DNA from: Asterochloris sp. CNOR1
Lineage: Eukaryota; Chlorophyta; Trebouxiophyceae; Trebouxiales; Trebouxiaceae
DNA: 64,000 bases
Assembly: GCA_963969365.1 (NCBI GenBank)
Contig: OZ017750.1
Span: 3,224,001-3,288,000 of the forward strand
Reading direction: 5' to 3'
Position 1 is the first letter of the stretch. Every line of letters starts with the position of its first letter. A model generated the notes under the pieces. The model was not told the DNA's origin and did no database searches. It saw nothing but the letters and a program-made list of their open reading frames with translations. Position numbers and translations under genes: made by a program. Below, one piece after another: positions 6,020 to 60,300 of this stretch.

Positions 6020-7185
6020 CTGCTGGCGACGGCTGGCAGGGCCTGCGTACACCTTCTGCAGGTTGTTGACCACCAGCTTCTCCACAATCTTGCCCAGGCC
6101 CATGATGTTGATGTCCACAGTGCCCTGCAATACCTGACGGCAGGTGTCTGACCCCACCTCCTCAATCACCTGCTGCAGCTTCACAGAGGCCTGCAGGCAG
6201 TTGAGTAATTAGTTGCCTTGGTGGTGGTCAGCAGGAGGCGTGGCAGAGCCTGCTCTCAAAGACCTCCTCGATCACCAGCTGCAGCTTCACAGAGGCCTGC
6301 AGGCAGTTGAGTAATTAGTTGCCTTGGTGGTGGTCAGCAGGAGGCGTGGCAGAGCCTGCTCTCAAAGACCTCCTCGATCACCAGCTGCAGCTTCACAGAG
6401 GCCTGCAGGCAGTTGAGTAACTGGTTGCCTTGGTGGTGGTCAGCAGGAGGCATGGCAGAGCCTGCCTTCAAACCTGTAAACGCGCAAAGGCAATGGCTGG
6501 ATGCATGTCCCTCAGCACCACTTGTGCAGGCAGCGGCGTATATGATTGTCTTGGTGGGAGTAAGCGGAGGCATGGCACAGTCTGCTGTGGAGAGCCTTCA
6601 GGGCACAGCAGGGCGCGTGCTCAGCTCTCAAACCTGTAAATGTGCAAAAGCAATAGCTGACACGTGGCCCCCAGAACCAGTTGTGCAGGCAGCAGACCAT
6701 GTCTGCCCTCTGAAAGCCAACATCGACGGAATGTAGGTAGCATGCTGCCAGGCAGACGCTCACCCTGTTGGCAAACACTGGAGGGATGCTGACCACCTCC
6801 AGCATGTAGGGCGCCTGCTTCAGGCAGGCAGGGTCATAGGTGATGATGTCTGCAGCCAGGCAGGGGCCAGCATTCAGCACAGGCAGCCATGAGACGCAAG
6901 AACGGGTTGCAGACACATCAGCAGCCGCTGCAGATCAGGGGCCCACCAGTGTAGACCAGTCTGCCGCCTGGGCGGCAGCATGCACAGCAGCAGCAGTCCC
7001 AAAAGTGGCAGCTACTTACATCAAAGCAAAGCGAGCAGCTCACCGGTGTACGCGAGTTCGCCACCAGGAAGGTACCGACTCAAGCTCTGCGGGACGTTGA
7101 CATCGGGCCTTGTTGTAGACTTGTAGACCTCCTGCTGCCCGTCCATCCAGCCATCTGTGATCTCCAGCTGCCCCAGCTTCATCAC
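6020..7185 (-). CDS. START/SRPBCC-like protein, partial gene model
   Basis: Three consecutive exons are clear on the minus strand: 7044-7185, 6764-6849 and 6020-6190. Phases match at both joins (1/2 and 0/0). They encode about 133 residues. The order is a beta-rich segment (VMKLGQLEITDGWMDG), a central strand (PYMLEVVSIPPVFANR), then GTVDINIMGLGKIVEKLVV leading into a terminal helix. A charged strand of the form GTV-x-I-x-G-x-G followed by an IVEKLVV helix is the usual end of SRPBCC/START-fold proteins, including DUF2505-like lipid-binding families. On that basis I suggest a small hydrophobic-ligand or lipid-binding domain. The 5' exons to the right of 7185 and any 3' exon to the left of 6020 were not found, so start and stop are unknown. 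The acceptor of the 6020-6190 exon has been triplicated (next entry). Confidence 0.45.
6176..6480. repeat. 106-bp tandem triplication spanning a splice acceptor
   Basis: Three near-identical copies have a 106-bp period. The marker TCACAGAGGCCTGCAGGCAG starts at 6181, 6287 and 6393. On the minus strand each unit carries about 60 nt of intron, the CTGCAG acceptor and the first 20-30 nt of the exon starting at 6190 (ASVKLQ...VIEEV). The outermost copy is slightly diverged. Only the copy at 6190 continues into the full exon. This is the youngest example of a pattern seen in many introns of this window. Confidence 0.9.
6469..6705. repeat. Older ~160-bp repeat pair next to the 106-bp array
   Basis: CAAACCTGTAAACGCGCAAA at about 6469 recurs as CAAACCTGTAAATGTGCAAA at about 6629. 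Each is followed by a diverged TTGTGCAGGCAGC block. Parts of the 106-bp unit (CTTGGTGG...GGAGGCATGGCA) also recur near 6550. The relationship suggests successive rounds of duplication inside one intron of the START-like gene. Confidence 0.6.
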
Positions 7186-8174: not shown

Positions 8175-8384
8175 GGCTCTGGGCTGCTGCAATGGCACCC
8201 CAAGATGAGCACCAAGTTTGACATGGCGGTGGACCCCTCGCCTCCAGGTACATGCATGCTGTTTTGTTGCTGATGTTCAGCAGTGATGCAGACACATATG
8301 AGGACTATGCCAAGGTTGTATCAGTGCCTTCAGAGCATGGTGGGCGGCAAGGTAGCCAAAAAGAGGGATGTGTACCCTCAGTAA
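8175..8384 (+). CDS. Possible 3' end of a plus-strand gene
   Basis: An exon at 8175-8247 follows TTTTTACAG and ends at GTACAT. It reads GSGLLQWHPKMSTKFDMAVD. A second exon from about 8281 joins in phase and reads MQTHMRTMPRLYQCLQSMVG, ending in KKRDVYPQ and a TAA at 8382-8384. Composition and splice signals fit a gene end, but no upstream exons are certain and I do not recognise the protein. Confidence 0.35.
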
Positions 8385-8694
8385 GGAGTGTGATACACCA
8401 AAAATGAGCTGCAAGAGCATTGTGTGCCACTGCTCTCTGCCAGTGCAGTACTGCAACACCACTGGTTTTGTACGCACTCCGGGCAAGTGTGGCCCATATC
8501 ATTCTGGAAATAGCCACACTGCTATATCACTGAGGAGTTGCAAGTGCACTGCTGATGACGTCAGATTTTGTTCATAGGGGGCTGGGAGCGGAGACAATTG
8601 GCAGGCTTAGCATGCAAGCACAAGGTACACAGGAGGCGTGACAGGTTTAAACAAAGAGACACAGATGTTGTTTGAGATATGGACAAGTCAGTAT

Positions 8695-11964: not shown

Positions 11965-12008
11965 CTACACAAGCCAGCGCAACTGTGGCCTACACAAGCC
12001 AGCGCAAC
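11948..12008. repeat. 25-bp tandem duplication at a stop codon
   Basis: GCAACTGTGGCCTACACAAG plus CCAGC occurs twice in a row, with a third partial GCAACTTAGG. The repeat lies at the 3' end of the secreted-protein gene on the minus strand, where CTACAC contains its TAG stop. Slippage here could change the last few residues. Confidence 0.85.
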
Positions 12009-17000: not shown

Positions 17001-20000
17001 GGGCGTCCAGCCACCTGCGGATGGCATCCTCGTGAGCAGAGGCTTTGTGTAGCGCCAAATGAGAATGGGTGGTGTGCGAGAGCATGTGGGGGTCGTTGGT
17101 GATGCTGTCGATGAGGCAGCGCGCCCAGAGGTGCCTGAAGATGCTCTCAAATATGTAGCTCTCTAGCTCACGCAGAGGGGGCACCAGAACCTGCAACATA
17201 GCATGCACGTGGCTCAGACAGGGGCATGGCACACCATGCAGCATCTACACAGAAATGCTCAGTCACATGGCATCAGGACCAACACCTCAGCCCAGAGCCC
17301 ACTGGTATGTGCCCATTCCCCGCTGAAGGCATGTGAACGTCAAGTCCAGAGCATAGCAGCAAGAAGCCACACCAAGGCAGCACCACTGCCTGCAGCATGG
17401 TGGGAACACATCTCAGACACTGAAGCGCATGCCTCCCCCTAGCGTCCACAAAGCACCAAGGGAGGGCCAGCAGCACCTGCCCAGCCTCCGCATGCAGCGA
17501 AGACAGGACATCAGGCCCCCGCGGGCAAGAGCTTAAGATCGCACATCCTCTGGTCAGCAAGACAAGGCACTGGCACCTGCGCCCCAAGGCAGCTGTCATG
17601 AGCACCTGCAAGCACAGCAGAGGCGACACGGGCAGGTGCACAAGCAGCCCAAGCACTGGCGCTGTGCTGCAGACAGACCCCCAGTACCTGAGGGGCAGGG
17701 CACAGAGCACACCTTGTACCACATAGTAACTGAGGGCATCTCAACATGCGACACCAGGCAGAGCATGACAGGACATGCCACAGCTGTGCGGCAAACCACA
17801 GGCAGCTGGCTAAGGCCCCTGCATGCACAGCACCACCTTGACACAGCAAGCTAACACAACACACCACAGGCGTTCGAGTGGTAGATTGGCCACCGCCCAG
17901 CAGGTGCTGCTGTGCGTTACCTGCATGACCCAGCCAAACTCGTCACCGGTGGCCTCCGCATCGTTTCCGCCCTCGTCGCCCATGCCTCCCCCGTGGCACA
18001 TTGCCCACAGCATCCAGCGCAGCTGGATGCAGTTGGACCACCAGTAGGCCATGCCCACCACATCGCTGCAGCCATCTGCAGCTGCCTCAATGGCCCTGCA
18101 GGGGATGCACAGGGCAGTTTGAGAGGGAAGGTGCCCACCACTTTGTTGCAGCCCATCTGCTGCTGCAAAAGTGGAGCTGCCGAGTAGCATAGAAAGGTTG
18201 ACATTTTCTGCAACCGTAAATCACCATGATTGCAGCTCTTTGCACCACTGCACTGATACTGCAGCCTGCAAGAGGCCAGGCATGTGACACAGGCTGCAGC
18301 TTGCAGCACACACGCCTTCCACATGGGTGCAGCTTGAAAACCCTGGGCGAAATCTTAGGCACAACTATAAAGCAGCTTGTACAAGGTCTTGACCCTCAGC
18401 AAGCACAGTTTGAAAATTTCGGCACATAGATACACTAACCTGACTGCACGCAGGCCAAAGGCAATGCCCTCATCAGGCCCAAGGCTGATGGTGGTCCGCG
18501 CAAGCCGCCGTGCAGGAGCGTGCACACTGTGGGCCTTGACTCGGCGCGCATTTCCCTTGCCACTCCGCACCAAGTACACCGAGGCCTGCAGGCATACGGC
18601 ACCAGTTGGTGAGGCGGCAAGCTGCCCGCAGGTAGAAGCAGCAGGGCAGGCATCCCCGACCCCCCTTCTCCACGTCTGGAAACGCATCCCCGTCAGGCTT
18701 GTGCCAGGCAAGCCTGGAACCAAAGTTCATGCAAGGGGAGACAAGGCACCACCTTCTTCCCACAGCAAGCCCGTCATGGGAGCAGCCTGCCAAGCATGCC
18801 AGTGTCACGTGCCCACAGCAGCCATGCTCCTGAGCACCACAACAACAAAGGCAGGTGCAGCCAGTGCCACTCAGAGCAGCAGTGGCATTGAGCACCAGGA
18901 AGTCACACAGTCCCATGAGACCTGGCACAGCGCACCTCCAGAGCAGCAGCTGTCCTGAGCTCCTTGATCATTGCCTCCACCTGCCCCACCCCCGTCCCAG
19001 GCGGCAGCAGTGCCAGCAGCTCCTGGGCAGCGTACTGCTCGCCAGCTGCAGCAGGGAGAGGGTCCTCTGTCTTAAGCGGCAGCCAAATGCCCACATCTAC
19101 TGATTTCTATATTCAGAGCAGCTGTGTCTGATTGTGCAAACGAACATCAGGTCGGGGACATCAGGCACAACAAGCAGGCAGGAGTACTTTGGCAGCAACA
19201 TGAGGCGCACCTGCATCAGCCGTAGGGCTGCCTGCTGCTGGCTGCTGCCTCTGCTGATGCTGCGCAGAGCGGGAGCTGGAAGGGGACCCACTGGACCCGT
19301 GCTCGTCACTTGAGAATGCCGCCCCAGCACTGTCAGCAAAAGCAGAAGTGACGGGCCGCACCTCCCTAGCCTCCTTGGCTGCAGCATGGAGGACCACTGG
19401 TCACACACAGAGGTGCATAAATGCATGTCCAGCTGCCAGCTCCAGTGTCAAGCTTCCACAAAGCAGTGAAAGGCAATCAATGGCCCATAAAAAAGGCACC
19501 ATCTGGCCATGATCGCCAACACACACACATAGCGCCCGTCCACCTGCATGCACTGCCAGCCTCATTGGCCAGTGCACGCCTGCAGCAACACGAGACACAA
19601 CGCAGTGCCTCACGTGCTGCAGCAGCAGCAGGGGCTGCCTGGACAACCCCTGCAGCCACAGGACTGGGTGTACCAGGAGCAATCCTGACAGAGGCTGCCT
19701 CTGCCGCTGGGGCCACATCTCTGTCCTTCGGCTTGGACACGGGAGCTGCCGCAGGCTGCTGGGGTTGTGCCTGCTTCAGATCGCCATTTGACAGGCCCTT
19801 GCGGACCCACTTCTTGTGAGTGGGGCTGTCGCTGTCCTCCCTGCGAGGCAGAGCAGCTGCGCCTCAGGAGCTGGTGGAAAGCTTTGGCCAGAGCTGCAGA
19901 AGACACCCTTCTATACCCTGAGGCAAGTGATTGACACACTGGCAAGACATCTGCATGGGAACATATGCTAGACTCTGTGCAATGGTCAATCATGTGCCAC

Positions 20001-23000
20001 AAGAGCATGCCAGGCTGACAAGACATCTACACTGCTGACTTCCATCCATCAACCCCTGTCTGGCAGTGGGAAGGGCAGGGCCGCTGCGCTTGACTTCTGC
20101 TCGCAGGGGGCACAGGCATGTCCCCGTACTGCACGCCAGGCTGAAAGTCAGCACAGGGTGGAAAGGCCTCAGCCGTCCCGCACAATGCCTAACGGGCAGC
20201 AACACATGGTGCGTGAGCCCGCACAGAGCCTCGCCTATAAGCCTATGTGCAGCTGTATGTGTGCCCCGAGACTGGGTGGAGAATCCGACATACCTAGCGG
20301 AAATCCCATTCACAGCAGCAGGCGGTTTAGCAGCCTGAGCCGCCGGCTTCTGCTGCTGGGTGGCCCAGGGGCTGAAGGACATGTCCTCAGCTGCGGGCCG
20401 CGCAGGCGTGCCTGCACTGGGCCCCAGTGCATCAGCCAAATCGTCCCCCAGATAGAAGTCGCCTGGCTTGGGCTTGCTGGGCTCCTCCTTCTTCTGCTGC
20501 AACTTGCGCTGTTTGGGGGGCACCGCCCCAGGCGCCTTGTTGGGGCTGGCCGTGGGGGCAGCAGCGGTGGCAGCTGTGGCCGCGGCGGCAGCTGCCACGC
20601 CTGATTCGGCCAGGCGCGCTGACCCCGGCAGCCCTGCTCCCTTGGGAGCGCCCTCAGCCTGCACCGCCGCTGCAGCGGGGGCAGCAGGCTGCGTCTGCTG
20701 GGTCTCTGCTGGCGCCTGGCCCCTGCGCTCGCTGGCCAGGGTGCGAGGGCTGCCCCTGGCGGCCAGCCGCTCCCTGCCAAAGCTGGAGGCGGAGTCTGAA
20801 CCCTCGTCAGAGTCATCCATGAAGATGCTTTCTCCCTTGGGTCCCGCCTGCCCAGGCGCGCCTCTGCCAGACACCTTCTGGGCCGCCAGCCTCGCTGCGG
20901 GCGAGTCTGGCAGCGCGTAACTCTTCACCTGCTGCTGCCCACTGACTGCTGGCTTCGCCTCCTGCTCCGTCGCGCTGCGGCGCTGGAAGAAGCTGTCAGG
21001 CAGGGGCCTTGCCCCAGCTGTGGGACTGGGGCCAGGGGACACCCTGGCCAGCCCAGAGGCAGACCCTGGAGCCTGTGCTCCAAATGCTGACTGCGGCGGC
21101 CGCACGTCCTTCTGTCCCATGGGGCTGCCGCCAGGTGCCGCTGGGGCCGGCACCGGGTCCTTCAGCAGCGGCTGGGAGCTGACTGCAAAGACAGAGGTCG
21201 GCGGCCTGACCTCCCAGGGTTTTTCGTCCCCGGCAGGCGCCTGCCTGCCCCTGGCAGCCGGCCCTGCTGGCCCAACTGGCCCAGCCGCCCCAGTCACAAA
21301 TGGGGAGGGCACTGCCCGCGCGTCCTTCTCCTGAGGGCTGCCAAAGGCTGAGTTGGCGTCATCCTCCCCATTGGCACCAAAAGCAGATGGTGGCGCCCTC
21401 ACATCCTTTGGTCTGGACGCCGCAAACACAGAGCGTGGTAGGCTGACTGCCTGTGTGTCCCTCTCCTCAGCCGCCGCAAACACCGACCTCGGCGGGCTGA
21501 TGGCACGGCGGGCCTTGTCTGGCTGCTGGCAGCCGGCAGGCTGAGCCACTGCCTGGCGCTTGGCATTGGCCTGCATGAAAGGGTTCTGACCCACGCTGCT
21601 GCTGCCAGAGCCCGCTGAAGTTCGAGCCAAGCCTGCCTGGGGCACCTCCTCACTGTCGCTGGTGGTGCGGCGGCGCATGAAGGCAGAGGGGGCCTCTGCA
21701 CGGCCCTGCTGCTGCATCTGCCTGCATTCAGGATGAGCCAGGATCACTTGTTGCCGCCACATGCCGGCATCGGATGATGGCAGCAGACAAAGATAGAGAG
21801 TGGCTCTGCAGGGCTCTGCTGTGAGGCTCTGCTGGGGCCGCGCTGCATTGCCTTCACGCAGGGACAGGCTGTTTGTAGCTGCCACATATCAGCGACAAGA
21901 GATGGCAGCGCATAGAGGTTGATGGGGCTCTGCTGCTGTGGACGTTTTCTGTCTGCCTGCACAGGGTGGGCTGTTCGCTGCCACATGCCAGTGGCACGAC
22001 ACAGCAGCGCATGCAGAGTGAGAAGGCTCCACTGGCCACTGCTGTTGTGGCTTTGCTGCGTCTGCGTGGGCACAGCATAGGTGCAAGATTTGTTAATACC
22101 CGCAACTAACGGGGTCCACATATCAGCAGGTGAGGGAAACTGAATGGGCCGCCTTGTACTGCTGCCACATTCAGGGTTGTGCAGGTGAACATCAGAATGG
22201 CACAGGTCCTCAGTGCGTCCTCAGGCAGAGCTGCACAAGCACGTCAGCATGCCAAATGTCCAGCACTGCGCCATCGTCAATGTATGGCCGGCTTGGCATG
22301 CAGCATGGCCACCAAGAGCACCCTTTTCTCCCAGGCGCCTGCCATGCCACTGGCAGACAGTTCCTGGCCGAGAACTAGCTGAGCTAGCATGTGTCTGGCA
22401 GCAACAGCCAGCTGGCCTGTAGCAAACGAATCTCTCATGCGCAGAGGCAGCAAGCCCCTGATTTACTTATACACCCCAGCTGATGCCTTGCGTGGCACTG
22501 GCTCCTTCTGCTCTGATGCAGCCCCATGGCAACTGCAAGTGGCCTCCTGGAGCCTGCCCCACAACGGGCCTGATCCACAAACACACCCCATCCCAGTGTA
22601 TCACCTGCCACTGGCAGACAGCTCCTTCTCCTCCATGTCTGCAACCGCTCGGGCCAGCAGATCGTCCTCGTCACTCTCCGACGAGCTGCCGGAGGGCTTG
22701 GTCTCCATGGGCGCAGCCTGCTGCACCCGCCCAGCTCCAGCCGCCTGTGTAGGGCCGTTGGGCAGCCCCGCCACCCTCTGGGGTGAGGGCGGCTGCACAG
22801 GCCGCAGGGGCTGGGGTGGCTGTCGCCCTGGAGGCGGCGGTGCGTCCATAGGTGAGGGCACATTTGTAGGGCGTCCCCGGCCCCCTGCCTGCTGCTGCTG
22901 CTGCTGTAGGGGCTGCTGGCGCGGGGCCGGCTGCTGCTGCTCTGGGTGCTGCGCGTAGGGTGAGCGCGGCAAGACAGGCACGGCCGGTGCAGCGCTGGTG

Positions 23001-36200: not shown

Positions 36201-36956
36201 CACGCCTGCTCCGCTGCCACAGATGATGTGGCATTCAGCACTGAGCCAACCTGACTACCCCTGCTCCCTGCATCATTCAGGACAACATTGTTCAATCTGC
36301 AGAGCTGAGCGACCGTGTCCATCGGCCAAGTGCCTGCTCTCGTCCCTGGTTCTGACAGGAGTCTTGTCGTGCTGGACCGTCAGGGCCAGCCCACCTGCCA
36401 TACGTGAGTGGAGCTCAGCTTCTCGGCCTCACGTTCTGCTATGTGGAATCTTTTCCTGCAGGGTTGACGTGGCCGAACCCTTCGGCAGGGTTGAGCAAGG
36501 GCTGCTTGTCCAGCCACCCCCAGCTCTTGATCTGCTCACACCTCAGTCCGACAAGCGCCGCCCTTGCCTGCAGATCTATCCAGGCCGTCTCCCCCCGCCC
36601 AGGGGAGTTGGCAGGGGCTGCTTCAGCCTGTTGGCCTGGCTTCTCTGACAACTGGAGCCTTTCCCTGCAGGATCATCAAGGCCGACTTCCCCCGGCCCGC
36701 GGAGCTGAGCGCGGACTGCTTCAGCCTGCTGGACGCGATGCTCAATGTGGACACCGAGTCGCGCATCACGGTGCAGGGCATCATGCAGCACCCTTGGTTC
36801 CTGACCAACCTGCCGGAGGGCATGCTGCAGCTGAACAAGCGGCTGCTGCAGAGCCCTGCCAACCCCCTGGAGTCGGGGCACTTCTGCAAACAGAATGAGG
36901 ATCAGATCCAGGAGGTCTGTGAGGCTGCCCTGGCACCGCCAGAGACCACCCCATGA
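30249..36956 (+). CDS. SnRK2-family serine/threonine protein kinase
   Basis: Eight exons give 383 aa with all phases matching: 30249-30430, 32564-32686, 33099-33165, 33752-33885, 34160-34205, 34874-35009, 35242-35419 and 36671-36956. Kinase landmarks are a loop [20 protein letters not shown] (ATP Lys), AQRETLNQR (helix-C Glu), NRDIKLEN (catalytic loop), CDFGYSK (DFG), [18 protein letters not shown] and [16 protein letters not shown], the NLP after the last subdomain and the C-terminal [16 protein letters not shown] box are SnRK2 hallmarks. SnRK2 kinases act in osmotic, sulfur and nutrient stress signalling. The usual HRD histidine is Asn here (ANRD), while the catalytic Asp is kept. The N-terminal exon encodes a Ser-rich, Cys-containing 60-residue extension. 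The first intron is 2.1 kb and repeat-filled. A TGTAA motif 577 nt after the stop could be its poly(A) signal. Confidence 0.92.
30659..30674. repeat. (GT)n microsatellite
   Basis: An uninterrupted GT run of about 16 bp lies in the kinase first intron. Confidence 0.8.
31490..31930. repeat. 70-95-bp minisatellite in kinase intron 1, about six units
   Basis: Units built on CCATGTGCCTGCAGTGCAGC plus CAGCATCAGCCAGG recur near 31495, 31565, 31635, 31715, 31793 and 31888 with 10-30% divergence. Because the units lack stops in some frames, two overlapping open frames of more than 300 codons run through the region; I regard these as repeat artefacts. A tail of the array continues weakly to about 32220. 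Confidence 0.75.
33178..33355. repeat. 87-bp tandem pair in kinase intron 3
   Basis: GCGGCTGCATGCTCTGGCTG at 33178 recurs at 33265 (87-bp period). The shared end reads TGCACGGTCTGCACATGCCT or a one-base variant. It lies directly after the donor of exon 33099-33165. Confidence 0.85.
36450..36670 (+). repeat. Two decayed copies of the last kinase exon's 5' edge
   Basis: The true acceptor is CCCTGCAG|GATCATCAAGGCCGACTTCC at 36670/36671. One copy has its acceptor at 36573 (TGCCTGCAG|ATCTATCCAGGCCG). It continues into GGCAGGGGCTGCTTCAGCCT, matching GCGCGGACTGCTTCAGCCTG of the exon. An older copy has its acceptor at 36461 (TCCTGCAG|GGTTGACGTGGCCG). The units are spaced 112 and 97 bp apart. The nearer copy retains the reading of CFSLL, so cryptic splicing to it is conceivable. 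Confidence 0.8.
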
Positions 36957-37683: not shown

Positions 37684-40600
37684 TCAGACAAGCCAGTTGA
37701 TGTTGGGCGTCTCCCCAACGCCACGCTCGAACCAGTTGGCACCGGGGGGCCGGCCCCAGATGACCTCGCTCCTGTCCACCTTGAGCTTCTCCTGGACGAC
37801 AGGCAGGTTGGCAAGGGCATTGCGCGCCTCCACCTCGTCATTGAACCATCCCTGCAATGCAGCACGACAGGGCTGGCTCTGCTTTGTGAAGGGCAGTCTC
37901 TTGCAGAAGTGGGCAACTCCTGCAGCAGCATTGCACCAGTATCATTCTTGGGGAGCATGGCGCTTAGCCCACAAATGGTTCACTGCTCCCCCTTGCAGCA
38001 GCGCGGTGCATGTAGCTCTGTGCGGCTTGCAGCAGTGCCCCAAATGATTATGTCCTGCCAAACCAGGGTACTCCTCATGCAGAAGCAGAGAGCTGTAAGC
38101 TCTCTTCACACAGTGTTCCAAAGCTGGCCTCCACCCAGCTGCATGCTATCTGCACCCCAAACCTCTGTCCGGCACACAGACCGCAGCAATGGCTGCCTGC
38201 ATTCATGCTGGCATGCTGAAAGCAACATGCCTACACCTCAGCAGCCTCGCATTGCCTGACAACCCTGTCGCTGGAGAGAAGAGGGCAGCAAGCCTGTTCC
38301 TTTGCAACTGCATCACACAGGTGAGGCATGCCATGCTCTCCTGTGTGTGACGCAACCTTGCCAGTCTACCGCACCCCTAAACATGTCATTTGGCTGCTGT
38401 GGGCAGCATGCTGAGTCATGTACCTTGACAACCATGTCCTCCTCACAGTACTCCTGGAACTCCTCTGCCCCCTTGCCAGCAATGACAACAACGTCCCGCG
38501 GCAGGGCGGCTGCGATGGCAAAGCGGATGGCTGTGAAGCGGTCCTCCATCACCCAGCGGCCATACCTGCAGCCACAGGGGGGCAGCTCAGGGGCTCTGGC
38601 AGCTACCACACCTGCAGCTACACGGGAACCAGACTCTCATGCAGGGCTCAGGCAAGCTGCTTGTTGGGTAGACCAGTTGCGGAGTGGAGGAATTGACCCA
38701 GCAGCTGCTGCTTCTGGTGGCGGCAGGGGCGATGCTTGTTGTGAGCCCACCAGGCACAGCTTCAGCTCGGACAAAGCACTTGCACCAACCACCCAGGACC
38801 TGCCCTTCACGGACAACGTCACCCACCCCAGTCACACCAGCGCAGGCCAGCTCAAGCAGGCACACAGAACCTTTCCTCCCACACCGTCCAGTGCAGAAGT
38901 GCTGAAGTGAAAGAGGGCTCCAGCACCAGCAACAAGACAGCAAGACAGACAGCCCCTGCGCACTTGGCTCCCTTCTCCTCCCACTCGTCCCGCATGTAGG
39001 GGCGGTCGTGGTCCATCCAGGCGATGTCCTGCAGGTACGGCTGCCCGAAGCGCGTGTCGTTGTCCTGCAGCAGGCACACAGCGCAGGCTTGGGTGGTGCT
39101 GCGGTGAGACATGCGCCAGGCATGCAGGTGCAGACTGCAGCACTCGGCAGACATGCTGCCGTACTGCGATGCAAGGCTTGTCAGCCATTGGGCCTGTGCC
39201 TGTGCCAGGCATGCCGGCTGCTTGTGCACATGTGCTGCACCGTTGGCACGCAATGTGCGTGCTATGTGTTTGCTGGCAGGATGCAGCACGGCAGAGCAGG
39301 CAGGCTGGAACACTTGGCTGGTACAGGCTGCACCACCCTGCCTACTCAACAGTCTGGAGTCGCAGGTCTGCCAGGACTGATGTGCTGGTTCATTGCATCT
39401 CAGCTGGATGGAGTCTGGTAAACCCTCTTGCAGGGGCTCTGCACCCACAGCTCATGTAGGGCCATGAAGCTGGGCCTGCCGGGGCAGTGCGCCAGAAGCG
39501 CACATGCAACACATGTAACACAGCACCAGGTAAAGGGCAACTCACCTGCAGCAGAATGTTGGGGTACCCTGCCTGGATGTCTGCTACGATGCCTGAGGGG
39601 TCTTCAGTGCGGGGATTGTTGTTTGTCAGGATGACGATGTCAGCCTGCAGGCCGCAGGGGGAGCAGTCGTTGCAGCAGGCAGCTGTGGCGCCAACAGTCT
39701 GTCAAGCCTCGGGCCAGGGCATTAACGCTGGTTTGTCATGCACGAGATCACCAGCCAGCCTCAATAGTGGCCACAGCCCACCCTACAGTGTGCTGCCTCT
39801 GGGCAGAGGAGGTGCGCTGTAAAGCCAGGGCATCGCAACTGGCACTGAGCCACCCCAAGCCCAAACAAACCAGCACACGAATGCACGTCCTGCTCCAGTA
39901 CCGCGGGCAGGCTGTGTCGACAGAGCATCCCAGGGGCTCTGCCAAAGAGTCCTTGCTGCTCTTTTGCAGGCGCATGCTGAGCCTCGAGGCCCCACCCTGT
40001 ATAGTGCCATCACATCGAAGCGTGGCCGGACGTCCCAGTCACATGCTGTGTACCCATGACGATGCACTTCACCGCTGTACATCCCAGAGGCCCACCTTGT
40101 AGTGCGCCATCTCACCAATGCGCGGCCGCATGTCCCGGTCCCTCAGGTCGTGGCTGCCTGGGCACCCCGTGACCAGGATGATCCTCCGAGCCCCGCTGTC
40201 CCTCACCGCGTCCAGCAGCCGCGACAGCTGGTCAGGGGTGTGTGCTGAGTCAATGCGGATGGCAAACTGCTGCTCGGGGTCCTCCACCAGCTGCAGGCTG
40301 CCGGGGACAAAGGCGGTGGCCTCGATACCCGCGTTGATGTTCTGCAGAAAAGCAGAGAGAATAGCTTGATTTTCGAGGGCAGGAGGCCTCCCAGTGCACA
40401 GCTGGGGACAGAGGCAGTGGCCTCATTGCCTGCGTTGCCAGGGTGTAGGGGGTTGGGAGCCATTCAGTGGTCAGCCCCAACTTGTAAGCTGCGGGGTGCA
40501 AGGTGGTGGCCTCAAGCATGCTGCACGGTTGGGAAACTGAATCAACAGCGAGGTGCTCTGCTTCACTTCACAGCGGCAGGTAGCGAGTATGAAGGCAGTG

Positions 40601-43600
40601 GCTCCACAGCCTGAGGTGGGGTTCTGAAGGGCAGAAGGGGGCATCTTGGCCACTACAGGCTCGTCCTTGCACGCATTGCCATCATGGCAATGTGATGCCA
40701 GCCACAGCTTACATAACATGTGGAGCAGTGGTAAACAGGGAAACTGATCTCTTGCTGCCAGCTCAGCTTAACACTGGCAAGATAGCCCCTATGTCACCAT
40801 CTGCTGCACAACTGCTGCTGCTGCATCTCACATTCAGCCGTAGCAGCGCTGTCACTGGCAAGCAGCTCAGCCTCTCGTAAGCTGCTGAGGCCCAGCTCTG
40901 TACACGAGATGATGCTGACGTCAGCTCCACAGGCACTGCCTGTGTGTGTCTCCATTAAGCGCTGAGGAAGGCCACTTGCATGGCCCATGACACCAGCCTA
41001 AGCCTGGCCATGCAAATGCACACCAAAAGCATTATCGTGCCCAGCGTTAGCCTCCCGAATTGCCTGCAATCCAGGCAGGGCCTGTACAAAGACATAGAAG
41101 TATCAGAGCTGCCACACAACACCGCTTCATCTCAAGAAAGCTGTCCTCAACTCTCACCGTGAGCGAGATGGTGCCAAGCGCCAGCCCCGTGGCTACCGCG
41201 CACAGGATGTTGTAGACATTCTGCTTCCCAACCTGGTCTGTGAAGATATTGAGCAGGCCAAAGGGGGTGCGGACCTCCAGGTCGGTGCCCCAGATGTTCT
41301 GCTCATTGAACTTTGTCACATAGACGTCTGCCTCCCGGTCCCGCAGCGCGTAGGTCACTGTTGGCACTGTTATGTACTGCTTGATGCTGTCTGTGTAGGG
41401 GTCTGCAGCATATGACAGTTCTGGGTGAGACACAGTTGGCGCCAAAGCTTGGAGGAGGACTACTGCAGTGCACTGCCTGAGGCTGTCTCTGTAACCAGTG
41501 CTGGCGGTGCTGAGGCTTGGACAGATATGATGACAGGCACTTTGTTGTGCTGCTTACTGCGTCTGTGTAGGGGTCTGCAGCACAGAACAGTTCTGTGAGA
41601 CACAGGTGGCGCCAAGGCGTGAAGGACTGCTGCAGGCCCAGCCATGTAATGCTTGGTGTGTCTCTGCAGGAATCTGCAGCAAGAGCTGGTGAGGTTAGAA
41701 TGTGTGGGAGCATTGCTACAGGCACCTCAACGTACTGCAGACGCTGTTTATGCAGATTGTTGCAGCAGGGGGACACCTGAGGTGGTGCTAAACTCGAAAA
41801 ATGCAGGCAATAATCTGTGCCGTCCATACAGGGCCTGCTTCACAGAACGTTGCACGGCGGGCGCTCTGTTGTGCTTTGGGATGTCAGACAAAGGATTGCC
41901 TGCTTGTTGCCGCCTGTGCAGGGAACTGGGGGAACGAGAGTGTGGTGAGGGCTTCTTGATCAGAACCAACCAGCACAACAAGGGAGATGCAGCAGGGAGA
42001 CTACAGACCAAATGGGCGTATATGCACACATTTTTCGAGGGGAACTATGTGACATGTGCCTGAAGGCAGCCTGCTTAAAGCAGGCACCATGCAATTGATG
42101 GACAGGCCTAGCAGGAAGACATGCAGAAGGCCTCTAGCTATGCATGACACATCTACATGCTGCCAGGCAGGCTCATCATCTGCCCTGATGGCAGCCAGCA
42201 GAATGTCAAAGCTTCTCTTTGCCATATATGTCCTGGGCTGGCACCAGAAAAGTGAACATTGCTGCTGGAGGCACGCAAAGTTGCCAATCGGTATGCCCAG
42301 CAGCATGAGCAGGGCAGGCAGCAGCCTTGGTATCCTTTTTGCCACAGTCACTCGCTGCCAGGCAGGGAACCCCACCATCTGCCCTGATGACAGCCTGCTG
42401 TGTGCTGAAGTTGGACGCTGCCACAGCAAGCTGGGCTTGTCCTATTGGCTTTGTCTCGCTGAAAAGCAGCACGCACATATGTGTGGCCAGCCGCCCCAGC
42501 GTCCAGACAACGGCCTCCAGATCTTACATGCCCACTCCCATGCCTGCCAGCAGTTTGGGCTCACCGTCCCCCCTGATGACTGCCCGCTGCGTGTCCCCGT
42601 CGGTCATGGCTGCAAACAGCCTGCCCTGGGCTTCCACCAGTTCCTCTCCCACCCGCTTGTGGTCCAGACCATATGGCCGCATCAGGTCCTCCTCCCACCC
42701 ATTTTTGTCCTCTTGCATCCCAGTCCAGGCCAGGACATTGAAGTGCACACCATGGCCCCTGAAGGAGGAAGACGGGGTTAAACAAGTCTTTTGTCACCAG
42801 CCTGAAAACTGCAGACAGCCTGCAAGGGATTGAAATCCTGTAGGCCTGGCCCAGGCCAAGACATGTACCAGCGCGCCCCATGGCCCCTGCATGAGGAGGG
42901 AGGCCTGGAGTCAGTGCATATCATGCTTTCTTTTTGGCCTGTGAGGGAAGCCTGACAGTGAGGGCACTGGTGCCTCTGCACGTAAGTGCAGGCCATGACG
43001 CTGAAGTGCATGTCATGGCCCCTGCAGGTCGTGGGAGGCCACCATCCAGTCCTTGTCCTGGCCCCTTCATGGCCAGAGCATGAATGGCAGCCGAGGGGTT
43101 GCAGTGCCTGCATGGCCCCTGCAGATGTGCTGCAGCGCGGCTTTTGCGAGGGTGCACAGTCATGGGCCGGGCTGAGTGGTGCGTGACAGCCTGCAGTTGG
43201 GTGCACGTCTGTGGCCCTGGCTGCAGACACACTGCATTTTAGCCTTCAGGTGGGTGCCTGGCCACGGCTCTCGCTGCAGACATAGCGAGGAAACGCCTTC
43301 AGGAAGGTGCATGGTCATGGCCCTGCCTGCAGACGTGCTGCAGAACAGCTGTCGTTTAGATGCACAGCCATGGCCGTGGCTGGGCCAGCCGTCCAGTACG
43401 TGACCATCATGCTGGTGCAGGACGCTTGTGGAGAAAGCTGCTGCGCCCTCACAATGACCCTCCGTGGACAGCACGCATGGCTGGTGCCACGCTGGGGGGC
43501 TGACACCTGCAGCATCAGGGGCCTGGGAGCAGCATCTGCCTCACCATGCCCAAGATGCCCTGCCAGCAGAGAATCATGCCTGGCTTCTGACCATATGATG

Positions 43601-46600
43601 AAAAACTTATCTCAGGACGTCTGACCTCATCACTAAACACATCTCAGGCCGTCTGACATCATCGACATAAGTTGTCTCAAACAGTGCAGTCAATGAGGCT
43701 GCCCCTGCCCATTTGCTAAAAGGCGCAACCATATTGAAAGAACACCACCGGCTCCTGAAGTCCACGTGGCAGGTACATATTTAAATATGTGCAGCATGCT
43801 CCCCGAACAGACATTGTGCGGATTGCTCACCTGTGCTCCTCCAAGGCTTTTATTGGGTCCAACTCCACAACGGCAGCAGTCGCTCCCCGGTCTGCTATGG
43901 ATGCCAGGACCTTCTGCATTGTCACACTGTCGGGGGTCGTGTCTGGGTGCTCATACTTCCCCTCGTAGGGTGTGAGGTAGAAGGGAGAGCTGGCCGGCCT
44001 GCAGGCAATGCCACAGTCACTGGCAAGGACCAATCATGCGACAGGGTCTGGGGATGGGAGGTCTCTCTGACGGCAGAGAGCTGGCTGATTGACAGGACTG
44101 CAGATACAAGTTGATGTGTGTCGCATTCTGCATCATTTTGAGCAGCGGGAGCTATCTAGCCAGCAGGCACTTCCAGGCAAGCTGGCAGCCTGCAAATTGT
44201 GCGCCTCAGCATATGCTGCCGCCCCCAGGAGGGGCCTTCCTGCTCTGCACCACGGAAGAAGCAAGGTGCCCAGCGTGCTGGCAGGCCTGCACAGCAGAGA
44301 CACACAGCCAGGCGTGCACAGCACAAGACACACAGCCAGCATGCACGCTGCACATGGCAGCGCCCTGAGCTGAAGCAGTTGCATCTCATTCATAGAAACA
44401 CAGCGCCTTCAGTACATATCCCGCCAGCACCCAGGCGCTGCACTTTCACATCTCTGTCTGCCCCCTACACTGCTGCTGCAGCTCAGACGCAGAACTGTCA
44501 GGTAGACAGCAGCTTGAGATCTCCTGCATAAATGCTTCACAGGAGGCAGTCAGGCCCATGCCTGCCAACAGGGGGTTCCTCAATTGAAGCTGCCTGAACT
44601 GCTGTGCAGTTGTCTCCTACCTGTCTGAAGGCAAACCAGCAGACTGCTGTCAGCCAGGCAGGCAGCAGAGGAGGCAGCCCCTTGAATGCCCCCATGCTCA
44701 AAAGTGGTGCCAGGCAAGCAGAAATAGTAGCCCCGGGCCCCAATAGTTCCAGGCTGCAGCCAGAAACAGACCTGCCAACAGAGGGGTCCTCCTTAGGAGA
44801 CGTCTTGGGCAGCCAGATCTCGCCCTCACCATCCAGCCGGTCTGAGTGGATGGCATACTCCAGGCTGCCAATCATGCCCACCAAACCCTCAGGGTCCCCA
44901 GGCTGCTCTGGCTCTTCCAGGATCCCACGGATCATCCAGGAAGTGGTGGTCTTGCCGTGGGTGCCTGCATGATTGTATGAGGTCAGTGTGAGCCACTTGA
45001 CGCATGGTGCAGATGGCCAGATGCCCTGTAGGCTCAGGTCAGGGTAGCAGAAGCTTCAACACAACACAGCATCTTGCGGAAGCGCTGGGTGTCAACCAGC
45101 TGGGGCACATTTGAGTGCCAAGGCGTCTTACAGGCCGAGGCTGGGGCAGCAGAAGCATCATGACAAGCAGCTTGGGCAGGCACTGGGCATGAAGCAGCTG
45201 GGGCACCGCGATGCCCACCCCTCCTGTAAACTCTGGTCAGGGCAACAGAGGCACCAGCACAAGCCAGCTGTGCAGGCGCTGGGGTCTGGGGTTCCTGTGG
45301 CACATTGGGCGCACAGACGGCCTGCAGACTCATGCCAGGGGCAGCAAGAGCACCAGCATAAGCGGAAAATGCAGGCGCAGGGGCCTGGGTCAGTGCAGCA
45401 TGCCCATAGACACAGCAGGGACACTTGCTGTTTGACCTGCAGTGTTTGTCTCGTGTCGAGATCCTGCCAATGACTCACCAGCGCTGACCTGCAGAGCAGA
45501 AGCCAGTGCACACACACCATGCCGCTCTGCCACCACTGCAGGTGACAGCAGCTGTGACCTTGGATGCTGCCACAACCTGGGCTCACAGACATAACCTAAC
45601 CCAACAGCCAGTGGCAGGGCGCCAGTACCACCGCAATGGCAGCAGTCAAGTTTGCTCAAGCAGCCCACCTGTGACTCCCACAGTCAGCATGCGCTCTGAG
45701 GGGTGCTCATAGAAGGTCTGCGCCAGGGTGTTCTGGACCCTGTGGACGTCAGAGACTTCGAAGCAGGGGATGTCCATGTCAGGTACGGACAGCGGGAGCC
45801 CCTGCTCGCTCAGGAGCGGTGTTGAGATGACGGCTGCAGCCCCCAAAGCCTGGGCTTGCAGGATGGAGTACACAGGATTCTCCTCCAGGACGCCATTGTG
45901 AATGTAGAGATCGTTTGGCAGCACCTGCAGTAAACACAGCAGCAGTGTCGAAACCTCTGCCAGCAGCTCCCTGAGCGTGGTGCCCCCATGGCTGAGGCAG
46001 CAGATGGACGCTGAGGGCCTCAGCAGGCGCAGCTGGTTTGTGGTGCCACTGGCAGTTTGACAGCCAGCATGCAGCATTGTCTCTGCTGGCTGAGGCTGCA
46101 GACAGACACCAAGGACTCCACCAAGCTGAGGTTGTGCAGTCTGCTGCTGGCAACGCTCAGACAGCAGCATGGAGCTGCTGCGCTGGCCTGTGAGATGGCT
46201 TTTCTTGCTTTGCACGTGAAACTGTAAGCACCTTTACAGCAATTGGCGTGCGTGCAGCATCTGCAGAGGTGGACGTCCAGCAGCTTTCAGGGGGCAAGGA
46301 GTGCGTCGCAAGGCAGAGACGCATGGCGGTGGGAGAGCACAACCCTAGCCTGCAAGAGGTGGGTCACGCTTCATGGGGAGCATTGTACGGCAGGCTATGT
46401 AGGTCTGTAGGAGTGCATGTCACTGCCTGCCAGGCCTGTTGCTTGTTCCCCTGAGAGTTCTGCATGGCAGAGACGCAGGGCGTGGAAGGAGCAGATAACG
46501 GCCCTGGCCTGAGAAGCGACGTGCATTTTCCAAGAAGCCGCCCCAAGGCACTCAAAGCACAGCTGTGAGAGGGTTCTTGCCTTGTGGGAGAAGCTCTGCA

Positions 46601-54362: not shown

Positions 54363-57300
54363 TTACATGCTGCAGCACTTGCCCTGTGAAGCAGGGACAT
54401 GCCATAAGCAGGACGGCAACTGTTGTGGGAGAAACAGAAAGCCAGACTTGCCAGTCTCAGCTGGAACCCCACCTGTTGTCTCCTGCCCCTGACTGGAAAC
54501 AGTGTCCCCAGCAGCACTGTGGTTACAGTGCACTGCAGAGATGCACCAGTCATCCCCTCCGGAAGCTGGCGCTGTGTCAAGGCCAAGTGCTGCATCGCGT
54601 TCGCGCCCAGCTGCCAGCAGCCTCTCAAATGCAGGACTGCGGGCAGGCGCCTGGCGCTCCGCTGCCTCATTGTCCTGCTCCTGGGCAGACGAGTCTGCAC
54701 AGCGTGACACAAAGTGGACCCACTGGCGTCAAATCTACCCCACGCCTCCATGTTCAACAGTGTTCAAGAGACAGGAGCCTTGACACCTCATGAGCTGTCA
54801 GGAGTCCAACTAGGTGCCACTTGCAGCTGAGACCCGACCAGGTATTTGAGCTAGCTGGCAACTCGCACCTGACACTGAGTTGCGCCCATTCGCACACTGC
54901 TCGGCCACCAACAGCGTCTCCAGGGCCAGGCGGGCATGCTGTGAGTCCAGCAGGTGCTCCACAGTGATGCCCTGCATGGCAACCCTGAAGATATCAGCAT
55001 GAGGGGAGCGGTGACCATCCTCAGGTGCTGAAAAGGGGCCAGTCCCAGCAAACGGAAGCGTATCTATCTCAGGCTGGTGCAGAAGGAATGCAGGTGTGCA
55101 AGCACAGGCACATGAAGTCATCTGTTGACCAGTCTGCTCTGCTCCTGCACCAGCAGTGTGAGTTGGGCCGCCTACTGCACGAAGGTCGCCCCCCAGCCTG
55201 TACTGAAGCTCTGCGCACATGCAGTTGGCAAAGCAGTCCTGCCACCCTTGCATGCTGGCAGTGCCTGGCTCTTGGGCACCTCGTGTCAAAGCAGGTTGCC
55301 ACCCAGCACCCGGTCCTGCAGCTCTGCACACACGGACCCTGTGACAACAGATGTGCTCAGCTCTTGCCCCCGGCTTGCACTGCCCACCTCGCTCAAGCTG
55401 CTCTCCAGCATGACCTCCAGCTCTGCCCACACGCCCTCCGGATTGATGGGCAGGCCCATGCTGACGCTGTGCCAGGCCACCCAGCAGCACACCTCCCTAA
55501 AGGTCAGGTTGCCAGGGGGGCAGAGTGCGCGCCACAGGCGGCGCAGCGCGGGTAGGTCCACGCTGCCTGCAGAGCGTTGGCTTGCTGCTGAGGGCTGGAT
55601 TGTTGAAGGGTGGCGGACCCACCATGCAGGTGCATACTTGCTGCAGAGCAGGGCCTCTGTGAAAGTTGGGGCTTTGTGCTGCAGAGAGCAACAAGAAAGC
55701 ACAGGGCAGCTGGCCTCGTGCTGTGGTCCCCCACCCCACTGCTCAAAGCATAGCCATCAGCACCAGCCCAAGACAAGTTCAGCCTGATGCATATCCATCA
55801 AGTCACCCACTGAGGCTGTTGAGCTCTCACAGCAGCTCAGCTGTGCACAGAGGCTGAGCTCATGCAGCAAAGGCTGCGCTCAGACACAGGTGCTGGCCTG
55901 CAGGTGCATACGAAATGAAATTGACAGCTACCCACCTTTGGGGCTGGTGCTGTCGAGCTGGTCAGGCAGGGTGAACCCCATCAGCTGGTGCACAGATTGA
56001 CAATCACGGCAACCCACCTTTTGAGCAGGGCCGGTTGAGCTTGTCGGGCACGATGGCCCCAATCAGCTGGCGCACCACCGTGTCAGTGTGCCGGCAGCAC
56101 TCCCATAGCTGGCGCACTGACCACGCGCTGTAGTTGGCGGTCTCCTGAACCAGTCTCAGGTCATTGCGCAGGCTGCGCAGGGTGTCGGTGGCCCCCTCCA
56201 TGTCTCTGCTCATTTGCAGCCGCTCACTGTGGAGACGCTCTACCTCCTGCTCAGCATCACTCCTTGCCTGCTCAGCGTCACTCCTTGCCTGCACCAGGCT
56301 GCAAGGGCACAGACCACCGTCAGGCGGCCTAAACCTGACTTAAAGCAATGATAGTGCTTGCCCTGCTGCTCAGCAGGCCTGTCTACCTGACACAGGCTGC
56401 AGGGTCACAGACACCTGTCAGACGCAGCGCAGTGTCTACCCATCCGGACTGCCAGCTTGCTGTACAGGTGGCCTGCCTCCTGTCCGGCATCTCTTCATGC
56501 TTTCTGCAGGTACGCACAGCTGGCAGCCTGTATGGCAGCACTTGCGCTCTGTGCCAGGCAGAGGCGGCACTCCATTCTTGGTTTTCATCTCGCTGCTTGG
56601 CGCCCCTGCGTGCCTAGACCATGCTGCTGTGGCATGAACAAAAGCCCGGCTCCCTGTCAGCACGTCAAGTGCTGTTGGCTGTCGTAGCTGCTGCCCAGCA
56701 TCAATGTGTGTCTGCAGCAGGTTGCAGCAGGGCCCAACATTTGTTAGTCCCAAAGTTGCTGTCAAGAGTTGCAGGCTGCCAGGTTCAGCCCTCTTCTCGT
56801 TGGGCAGCTGCACACCTGCACGCTGCTGCAGGGGTGCAGGGCAAGGTGAGACGTGGGCCATAGATGCAGGGTGCCCCATCTGGAGCGGTGTACAGTTGTA
56901 CCCTCAGGCTGCAGGGTCCCAGAGAAGACACACAGACGTGCATCTCGTAGATGCTGCCATGCTGTAGCAAGCTTGACGTGCTGACATGCTGCAACCGAGC
57001 AGCCCTTGGGGCCATTTCATGTCCCTGTCAGAGCTCGTCCTCTTGACGGGTGGACAGTGAGGCCTGTCAAGCAAAGAAGACTGCACAAACTGCTGGCTGT
57101 GTGCCGCCGTGCCAGCTCTTGGCAGCCCAGGATCTGACACAAGCTCTCACGGCCCCCTCCCAGCGGGCAGCTCACCCGCTCAGTTGCGTGATGGCATCGT
57201 GGACCATCTCAGGGCTCCATTGCAGCTGCTCCTGCACCAGCACGAGCTGCCCACCCCACTCAGCCTGCTCCAGGATACTGCCCAGCCCCTCTGCCTGGCC

Positions 57301-60300
57301 AGCAGCAGCCTCCAGCGCGCCGCTGCTGAGGCTGCCGGTGGCCGCCAGGGTGGCAGCTGCCTTACTCAGCCCCTCAACGTCCACCGCCTGCAGGCATGCT
57401 CTGGGTTTCATGGTGAACTGCTATGCGTTACGAGCCAAGAAGCTCCGCAGGCAGCTCCTGAGCTTGTCCTGTCTGTCTGCATTGGCAAGTGACCCCGTGG
57501 CGGCATGCCAAACGATAGCTCCTCCAAGGCAGCCAAGCTTGGCACCAAGTACTACCCCAGCTTGCCAGATTCCTATTGTAGCCGACCTTGATATCGTCCT
57601 CCAGCCCCCAGTAACCCGCCTCAGCCTTGCCGTGTAGCTCCCTGAGCAGCTCCACCACCACCTGCATCTGGTGCTGCATAGCGCCTGCTTGGGCCTGGGT
57701 GGCCAGGCTGCTCACCAGCACGCGGGCAGTGCAGGCCTGCAGGCACCACTTGTGAGCACGCATGCCAGGTGCGGCGGGTTGATTGGCCAGAATCTGCACT
57801 TTGGACGCAGGCTACGCAGGAAAGGAGGCACAGGTCGGGAGGGTGATGTGCAGCATCATGTGCAGCACGCTGCTGGCCAGGTTGCGTACTGCAAGGCGTG
57901 CAGGCGCCGGGGCCCTGGCAAACGTGAAGGAGCGTGATTGCAGCCAGGTACAGCTGCTTGTGGCACAGCTTGCATTGGCGCCCACAACAATGCACTTCTA
58001 AGGCTTGGGAGTGCCTTGATGCACGTGCCTTGCACAGAGCGGTTGATGCACATGCTGAGCCGCACACTGGAGAAGGACCCACCTGCTGCCTGCGCAAAAC
58101 AGCAGACAGGGAGGCGCCCCAATCAGCCTCTGACACCATAGGCACCCTGGCCGGCTGCTCCTTGTCCACGTCTGTGTCACTGGCCGAGTCAGACAAATCT
58201 CCAGCAGAGGCCTCCTGCACTGAGCTGCCCTCATCGCTGCCGCTGCTGTACTCCACCCCAATCCCAGCCAGCTCTCCAGCAGAGGCCTGCTGCACCGGGC
58301 TGCCCTCATTGCTGCCGCTGCTGTACTCCACCCCGATCCCAGCCTCCTCGGCAGCAGCAGCCTCCCGGGGGGACCTGGCAACACTGCTGGTGCAGCTCAC
58401 GGCAGCTGTGTGCTCAGCATCTGGCACTGCCTGACCACGCGCCACCAACTCCAGCTGCTCCTGCATGGCACAGGCAGGCAGAAGCTCTGGCCGGCCGGCC
58501 AGGGTGTGGAGGGCGTCACCATGAGCTGCACTGAAGCATGCAGGATGGGCTTCCGGAGGAGGTGTGGGAGCGCAACTGTCTGGTGCATGTCTGGCAGGCC
58601 TTGGCCTAGGGGCGGCTCAGCACAAGAGCCACCCGCCATCTGTGGTCAGCCAGTCACCGTCATCTGCAACACAAAGAGCTGCTGCCACACACGCCGTCAC
58701 ACAGAGGACCTTTGAGCACGCGCAACACTTCCAGGCCCCAGAACAGCACAGGTATAACCCCCTGTCCAGCCCTACAAAGAGCCACTGACACACTGGAACC
58801 CCTCTTAGGTGCAGCATGGTTGTTTTGGTCAGCCCCGGGATGTCCTACAGGTGCTGTTCAGAGGTCTGGCAGAGCTTTGTTGGCTGCAGCCCCAGCCAAG
58901 TGCAATCAATTGCTTCTGGCCCCATACCAGGGGCAAACTGCTCACCTGGGCCAGCGGCAGGTGTGGTCACTGATGCCGCTCCTCTCAAGTGAAGCAGGAC
59001 GGCCAGTGCCAGGGCCGCCTGCAGGCGCTGCTTAGCAGGCTGGCATGCAGTTCCCCAACTCAGATGTCCAGGTCAGTCCAGATACTTGGCCCTCTTCCAT
59101 GTGCAGCGTGCTCACATGGATCGGTCGCTGCACATCCTGCAGCCCCCCACACACACAGGCAGCCACTGTGGCCAGTCCAGGTGCAGCACGCTCACCCGCG
59201 CCAGCTTCAAGTCCTCTTGTAGGTGCTGCTCAGAGGCCTCAGAAGCTGCCAGCGCCCGGTGCAGCTCTGCCAGGCGCTGGTCGCTGTTGGTGCGGACCTC
59301 CTCCATGACCTCTTGGTGCTCGTCAGCCTGCTGCTTCTGGCGACTCTCTGCGTCCAGCACCTGCTGCTCCAGGAGACTCTCTCTCTCCAACACCTGCTGC
59401 TCCAGCTCCGCAATGCAGCTGCGCAGCGCCGCCCTGCAGGGCAAGAGGCGCGCACCTAGGCTCAGTGCCGCTGAAGCCAATATTTTTGTTGAATGCTCCT
59501 GCAATCACTGCTCTGCCATCAGCACCTGCTGCTGCAGATCTGTAATGCGGCCGTCCAGTGCAGCAGTCCTGCGAACAGAGGACACTGAAGTCTGCAGTTC
59601 TACAGATAAGCATCACGTGGCCTGCTCCTGCATTGGGATCCCCCGCTCCAGCACGTGCTGCTCCAGCTCTGCAGCTGCGCAGTGTCACCCAGCAGGAGGG
59701 CGCATGCCAAGACTGCTGCACAGTGGCTGGCCAAGCTTGGAGGCGCCACTGCTCAGGGCCAGCTTGTGGACAGGGTCACCCCCCTGCGGGACCCACAAAC
59801 GGTGGCAGGTCGGACAGGACCCACATATGATGGCAGTCAGACGCTGCCTATGGTGAGCTTCGAGCAGCTGCATGTCACAGTCATGCACACTTGTGCTCTC
59901 GAGGGACCAGCGGGACATAACATTATCTTGGGTCCTTTCTGGATTGGCAATCTGGCTTTGCCCATGAGACAGGCAGGCCAAAGACCAGGCCCTGGAGGTG
60001 AGATGTGTCCATGCAGGTGTCAAAGCAGCATGCCACCTTGCTCTTGGAGGAGCTAAACAGCGCTACCCAGGAGACAGGCTGGTACAAGGAGACTCACATC
60101 TCATCGTCAGTGCCCACATGCCCTGGGGAGTCCTCCACTTCTAGCTCCTGACCAGCCGCCTGCAGCCATCAGGGCTGCTGCATTGGGGCGCAGGCCTTAC
60201 AAACATATGCTGGTGGTCAAATGCACAATGTGGCTCAGCGAACAGGCCACCAGATGCTGCTGTGGTTACCCGTTGGGCCCATCTGTTGTCATGTAAGTCA

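Follow-up and report, generated by a model that had tools for sequence, protein, structure and literature searches.

Copies of exon edges in introns of Asterochloris sp. CNOR1 as probable remnants of short tandem duplication

Tandem exon duplication is known to leave duplicated coding sequence within introns. Small tandem duplications in plants are reportedly the subject of work by Vaughn and Bennetzen in 2014 and by Schiml in 2016, and Gao and Lynch in 2009 and Hellsten in 2011 are said to have dealt with intron gain via tandem genomic duplication. Here we analyse a stretch of 64,000 nucleotides from the green alga Asterochloris sp. CNOR1 (contig OZ017750.1, positions 3,224,001 to 3,288,000; hereafter the window), eukaryotic genomic DNA of about 59% G+C with intron-rich genes, in which introns of five genes contain diverged copies of the neighbouring exon-intron junctions. 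We propose that these arrays are probably the remnants of frequent, local short tandem duplication (about 70–260 bp), which requires no splice site and is filtered by selection.

In rice, tandem duplications are the commonest insertions, are enriched at 50–200 bp and are ascribed to the repair of adjacent nicks, while the tandem share of insertions is down to 5% by 200 bp (PMC7971508). The copies in our window are direct and adjacent, as in rice; however, the rice events are recent ones between varieties, while here they are mostly old, decayed and recognised against the conserved exon. A worked-out route to short tandem duplications exists for mouse and human cells, where they depend on break repair with CST and Pol alpha-primase and nearby single-strand breaks are named as a source (PMC8355091); the system differs from ours in its organisms and in its short (<100 bp) insertions. 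Intragenic tandem duplication is also an accepted route to new introns (PMC3443670, PMC2891723). The AGGT-duplication type of intron gain resembles our case in that tandem duplication occurs within genes and duplicates splice sites, but there an exonic duplication creates a new intron, whereas here existing introns acquire extra junction copies. Duplicated coding sequence inside introns is also a likeness to tandem exon duplication; in contrast, the alignments here show one border each, although no separate search for whole-exon copies was made. The dispersed related introns of Introner elements are not seen in the 64-kb window. A literature search covering titles and the openings of abstracts did not find junction-copy arrays in algal introns.

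Edge copies and their local, direct character

The exon edges were taken from 12 gene models (START-like, NT-C2/DIL, SnRK2, MurE, coiled-coil, P450, cytidine deaminase, g26, g48 and three short-intron models at 76–2833), built with a small codon and splice-site hidden Markov model trained on the window itself, which give 64 introns and hence 128 edges. Before testing, the automatic models were pruned by hand: stray terminal exons, a number of micro-exons, the mini-exons of START, an NT-C2/DIL exon of 36 nt and four models of doubtful standing were dropped. For each edge the query consisted of 60 nt of exon only and was compared with the adjacent intron, so that intron ends could not match themselves, and the null distribution came from same-length pieces of other introns (2000 draws, p floor 0.0005). 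At a false discovery rate (FDR) of 5%, a copy in the neighbouring intron is significant for 19 of the 128 edges, each of them at the p floor. As a control, random non-neighbour introns gave 1, 2 and 0 of 128 edges at p<0.01 in three runs. With queries of 25, 40, 60 and 90 nt, 6–10 acceptors and 9–11 donors, each of 64, are copied; the six Pfam-matched models alone give 5–8 acceptors and 7–9 donors, each of 42; and exon middles used as queries (exons of at least 180 nt) are copied in 1 of 52 tests. We confirm that intron copies of neighbouring exon edges are genuine in this window.

The preliminary description, made from the sequence alone, had reported diverged tandem junction copies in at least nine introns of five named genes, and this is borne out: 16 of 64 introns carry an edge copy, in the same five genes (START-like 1, NT-C2/DIL 2, SnRK2 3, MurE 5, coiled-coil 5), with none at FDR 5% in the other seven models. 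It had also described the unit as usually one of the acceptor side, a point to be corrected, as 10 of 64 donor edges are copied against 9 of 64 acceptor edges. Introns with an edge copy are longer (median 699.5 versus 332 nt, Mann-Whitney p 1.4e-4), the 64 introns together having a median of 392.5 nt and a mean of about 453 nt (29,006 bases). Intron length and G+C content come near the values tabulated for Tetradesmus obliquus (462 bp and 57%; PMC5966456), a likeness that is no evidence of identity. The alignments of most copies run across the junction into both sides, covering 75 intronic and 40 exonic nt in MurE 41402 (81%), 27 and 73 nt in SnRK2 36671 (74%), and 34 and 58 nt at the coiled-coil donor 56018 (73%), while the copies of MurE 40341 and of the SnRK2 32002 donor are limited to the exon part. 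Weak among the 19 are the MurE 38963 donor and the coiled-coil 57175 acceptor (best scores 21 and 23), NT-C2 21721 and coiled-coil 56288; at edges with p 0.01–0.03, outside the FDR set, several alignments are short or lack the junction. The loci are collected in Table 1. Iterated profile searches, which inflate E-values, served solely to place copies, and the START donor stretch, lying outside the modelled introns, was excluded from the 128 tested edges.

Similarity in the window is overwhelmingly near and direct. Self-BLAST at score >=38 finds 27 direct pairs less than 1.5 kb apart, versus 0.17 expected from the density of far pairs, with one pair at 1.5–6 kb, three farther and a single inverted pair at close range; raising the score to >=44 leaves 20 near pairs, none elsewhere and no near inverted ones. 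Direct similarity at score >=26 is found for 17.7% of 1162 60-nt intron windows at 10–260 nt, falling to 3.5% at 260–510 nt and 0.9–1.5% at 510 nt or more, while reverse-complement similarity stays at 0.2–1.5% over all distances (1.1% at 10–260 nt). The shifts of the 27 near pairs run from 72 to 524 nt, 25 of them within 72–263 and the others at 387 and 524, so that of the period of about 50–160 bp given earlier the local, tandem character stands and the range is wider. Sizes are mostly 50–250 bp, as for short local tandem duplication, though longer than the rice range. Since similarity is near and direct, the arrays are neither a dispersed family nor inverted structures within the window. The similar structure across many introns could in principle reflect fragments of a dispersed repeat or of an intron-creating, Introner-like element, but the edge copies resemble their own exon rather than other introns drawn at random, the four pairs beyond 1.5 kb at score >=38 disappear at >=44, and Rfam gives no family at gathering scores; we regard this explanation as exceedingly improbable, and within the 64 kb it is rejected, as self-BLAST shows near pairs almost exclusively.

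The duplications are not confined to exon edges either. Arrays lying entirely in introns are found at 33177–33352, 45042–45389, 15108–15238 and 16492–16660, and for 143 of 1674 intron windows the best local match contains no exon sequence. Recognisable local duplications (score >=38) make up 7.5% of the bases in introns, 4.7% in exons and 3.3% in other DNA, the gap between introns and other DNA being uncertain as the latter may hold unmodelled genes. Because such intron-only arrays exist, no border is needed for duplication. With periods of 25–102 nt they also bring to mind ordinary intronic minisatellites which expand and capture exon edges by chance, a reading that overlaps with short tandem duplication; however, many edge copies occur singly or in small numbers and have diverged strongly, quite unlike homogeneous arrays, and we consider minisatellite expansion an improbable account of them.

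Table 1. Edge copies and other local duplications in the window, with positions counted from its first nucleotide
Feature	Coordinates	Strand	Remarks
START-like (DUF2505-like) acceptor array	6156..6472	-	three 106-nt units, ~70 nt intron end + 35 nt exon start; exon start 6190
Older decayed copies of START-like intron tail	6404..6693	-	shifts 121 and 160
START-like donor side	5325..6066	-	four aligned decayed exon-end copies downstream of donor 6020
NT-C2/DIL acceptor copy	18052..18201	-	exon start 18095, shift 81
NT-C2/DIL acceptor-side match at 21721	21669..21975	-	weak, extended alignment 59% identical
NT-C2/DIL donor copy	22309..22626	-	donor after 22605, shift 261
74–77-nt tandem array	31577..31962	+	from upstream of the first modelled SnRK2 exon into it
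SnRK2 donor-side exon copy	31928..32212	+	exon end 32002, shift 210
SnRK2 87-nt tandem duplication	33177..33352	+	entirely intronic, no exon edge
SnRK2 donor copy	34983..35199	+	donor after 35009, shift 120
SnRK2 donor copy	35390..36037	+	donor after 35419, shift 524
SnRK2 acceptor array	36255..36743	+	exon start 36671; four decayed copies near 36558, 36444, 36357, 36267
MurE donor-side match at 38963	38751..38990	-	weak, 61%
MurE donor copy	39986..40140	-	donor after 40096, shift 100; p 0.022, outside FDR set
MurE acceptor-edge copy	40276..40437	-	exon start 40341, shift 101; exon part only
MurE acceptor copy	41363..41643	-	exon start 41402, shift 172, 81% over 115 columns
MurE donor array	42150..42633	-	exon end 42565 + two copies
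MurE acceptor array	42700..43382	-	exon start 42758 + three aligned copies; intronic pair reaching 43382
MurE donor copy	44462..44791	-	donor after 44772, shift 210
MurE 102-nt tandem array	45042..45389	-	intronic, adjoins no exon edge
Coiled-coil donor copy	55265..55437	-	donor after 55388, shift 99
Coiled-coil donor copy	55900..56075	-	donor after 56018, shift 82
Coiled-coil acceptor-side match at 56288	56243..56395	-	weak, short (34 columns)
Coiled-coil 75-nt in-frame duplication (25 residues)	58190..58363	-	within exon
Coiled-coil donor copy	58761..59247	-	donor after 59196, shift 372
Coiled-coil acceptor array	59360..59734	-	exon start 59433 + two copies

The gene models behind these edges vary in support. 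Pfam finds a complete kinase domain in the SnRK2 gene (E 8.5e-62), whose top PDB sequence matches are SAPK10 and SRK2 kinases, and further supports the MurE ligase middle and C-terminal domains, cytochrome P450, NT-C2, DIL and DUF1681, while the START-like gene scores 26.5 bits against DUF2505, slightly under the cut-off of 26.9. Defects are present in the models of MurE (first exon out of frame), of the coiled-coil gene (3' part out of frame, with 7 stops after omission of a predicted 10-nt exon) and of cytidine deaminase (one stop). A scan of the SnRK2 protein against viral contigs found no relative. The DUF1681 gene (25988–26917, minus strand), which we take to be NECAP-like, adjoins the NT-C2/DIL gene. 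The models at 76–2833 (plus strand) have introns of 82–145 nt, shorter than those elsewhere, with zero edge copies at FDR 5%. Outside the modelled genes there are short tandem duplications at 7957–8021 (33-nt units, 93%) and 11954–12009 (25-nt units, 100%), both Tandem Repeats Finder (TRF) matches.

History of the arrays and fate of the copied acceptors

Some arrays retain traces of the order in which they grew. On the START donor side the pair at 5441–5621 (91-nt units, 87% identical) lies wholly outside the exon, and each unit bears an exon-end copy about 50% like the exon; as this duplication has carried exon-end copies along, we are dealing here with a copy of a copy. It holds two of the four exon-end copies on this side, and an extra match at 5904–5855 appears in the iterated search only. 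The two copies of the MurE donor array (42565) share 75% with each other, against 59% and 67% with the exon. Within the START acceptor array both additional exon parts have the same sequence, which departs from the exon at two positions, while the nearer copy has an intron part that equals the exon-adjacent one and not the outer one. This speaks for a copy of a copy, although two later changes in the exon would serve equally. A steady fall of similarity with distance from the exon, claimed previously as general, is found in two of the six aligned edge arrays with at least two copies, the SnRK2 acceptor array (71-55-53-50%) and the START acceptor array (98-93-71%), and is absent from the other four (coiled-coil 59433, MurE 42758, the MurE 42565 donor and the START donor).

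The START unit ends in GAGGAG/GT (6158–6190, 6264–6296 and 6370–6402, minus strand), so each copy has the look of an in-frame exon of 33 nt complete with acceptor and donor; this end can be likened to the AGGT duplication model of intron gain. The MurE acceptor at 42758 (minus strand) is modelled as CTTCAG, while its copies at 42886, 43021 and 43119 end in ATGCAG or CTGCAG, closer to the genome consensus.

Are the copied acceptors then kept for use? Seven of 15 copied acceptor positions reach at least the 10th percentile of the scores of model acceptors, versus 6% of 2007 intronic AGs; for ten positions the best AG within 6 nt was scored, and the remaining five were judged misses by eye from the alignments. 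The gene finder also took the two extra START copies for 33-nt exons. Judged by their scores, the predicted copied acceptors may serve as decoys, and one could go further and suppose that selection keeps the copies as working acceptors, decoy or alternative, or as small cassette exons. That call of the gene finder is, however, weak, since it also split the real START exon by a 33-nt intron. Further, across the 15 acceptor-side copies the acceptor motif is 0.72 identical to the original and the exon part 0.73 (Wilcoxon p 0.43), and since motif and exon part decay equally the copied acceptors do not appear to be maintained, as the sequence comparison suggests. We therefore think it improbable that the copies would be functional acceptors or exons under selection.

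Short tandem duplication and the exon border

The arrays are most simply explained by ordinary short tandem duplication of DNA and not by a special element that copies splice sites. Such duplications would strike genes locally and independently of splice sites. A duplication straddling a border would produce an extra junction in the intron beside an intact exon, and with the normal message presumably still spliced such a mutation could persist, while a duplication internal to an exon would survive only when the frame is kept. The extra copy would be free to decay, with selection holding the exon edge, and the conserved exon would thus act as a lasting reference making old copies recognisable; repeated duplication at the same edge could place a newer copy closest to the exon. 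The molecular step would most likely be fill-in and end-joining repair of nearby nicks or staggered breaks, as reported for plant and mammalian small tandem duplications. On balance introns would lengthen. What is observed is similarity that is local, direct and two-sided, found inside introns and at borders alike, with no dispersal across the window.

The preliminary description had instead suggested that slippage, or strand transfer, could be anchored at acceptors. The data do not support this, because donors are copied as often, intron-only arrays exist, similarity is direct only and mostly within 260 nt, and there are copies of copies, among them the 91-nt START duplication outside the exon. 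A weaker, two-sided preference for borders survives from that suggestion. It could be that exon-intron borders on both sides are favoured for duplication or copying, for example by breaks or strand transfer tied to splicing or transcription, and the counts of loci and of windows given below speak for it. On the other hand, arrays confined to introns, and copies of copies, require no exon, and since the copies carry intron sequence past the junction the template was not spliced RNA; also, the numbers are small, with hand grouping and a single 64-kb window. We consider such a preference an unlikely explanation of the arrays.

Windows with a local copy make up 11.9% of 345 at junctions, 12.0% of 1674 in introns, 4.7% of 750 in exons and 5.1% of 1148 in other DNA, although these windows overlap and are not independent. 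For a comparison with expectation we simulated random duplications that decay, with the exon copy changing at 0.15 or 0.3 of the neutral rate, and the expected edge fraction among detected pairs is raised by the constraint from 0.34–0.36 to 0.40–0.43, and is 0.35–0.37 with no constraint.

Several observations weigh against duplication indifferent to borders, or against the details we propose for it. In 58 of 201 cases the match of an intron window hits exon-containing sequence, and without these the intron rate is 8.5% versus 11.9% at junctions. At score >=38 an exon edge is touched by 11 of 17 gene loci, versus 42–44% under random placement, or about 43% with detection bias included, and at other thresholds by 8 of 12 (>=44), 12 of 20 (>=36) and 16 of 25 (>=34), one purely exonic locus being omitted each time. 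Grouping arrays by hand, merging MurE 42159 and 43111 into their respective edge arrays and counting the START donor array as well, gives 13 of 17; the binomial p against 0.44 is 0.07 for 11/17, 0.035 for 16/25 and 0.007 for 13/17. Copies at 260–510 nt occur in 6.1% of junction or mixed windows versus 3.5% of intron windows. Detection bias accounts for only a part of the border excess, and a mild excess of loci at exon borders, on both sides and in a small sample, is not accounted for by tandem duplication as proposed. As to size, 14 of 27 shifts are above 125 nt, while in rice the tandem share drops to 5% by 200 bp. Selection on the frame finds some support in the periods given by TRF, divisible by 3 in six of six exon arrays (9, 9, 12, 21, 33 and 75) and in 7 of 13 intron arrays (Fisher p 0.06), but this frame test is weak and partly circular, exons being called by their open frame, and codon repeats may account for the short periods. 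The intron part of the 15 acceptor-side copies is 0.62 identical to the original, as expected for two freely changing copies, but its gap to the 0.73 of the exon part is partly built in, the copies having been found via the exon part. Finally, junctional homology, of which fill-in and end joining would leave little, could be read clearly at the START array only, out of 11 arrays.

Intron growth and its record at exon edges

Short tandem duplication thus remains in our opinion the probable origin of the arrays. They share direction and locality with the known class of small tandem duplications, and approximately its size; what they bring to it is how densely they lie at exon edges and how long old copies remain visible in that place. 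That introns grow through such duplications is a fair inference. A bolder proposal is that intron growth in this lineage proceeds mainly via serial tandem duplication favouring exon-intron borders on both sides, for example through transcription- or splicing-linked breaks, with exon edges forming a readable record of growth that would allow parts of introns to be dated; we put it forward tentatively, as a rather unlikely possibility. In practical terms, gene finders will meet strong decoy acceptors, two copies having been called as exons here. If the density of 16 in 64 introns holds genome-wide, exon edges would record small intronic tandem duplications, and this record would permit a direct test of intron lengthening, of border-favoured duplication and of the tolerance of splicing to duplicated acceptors.

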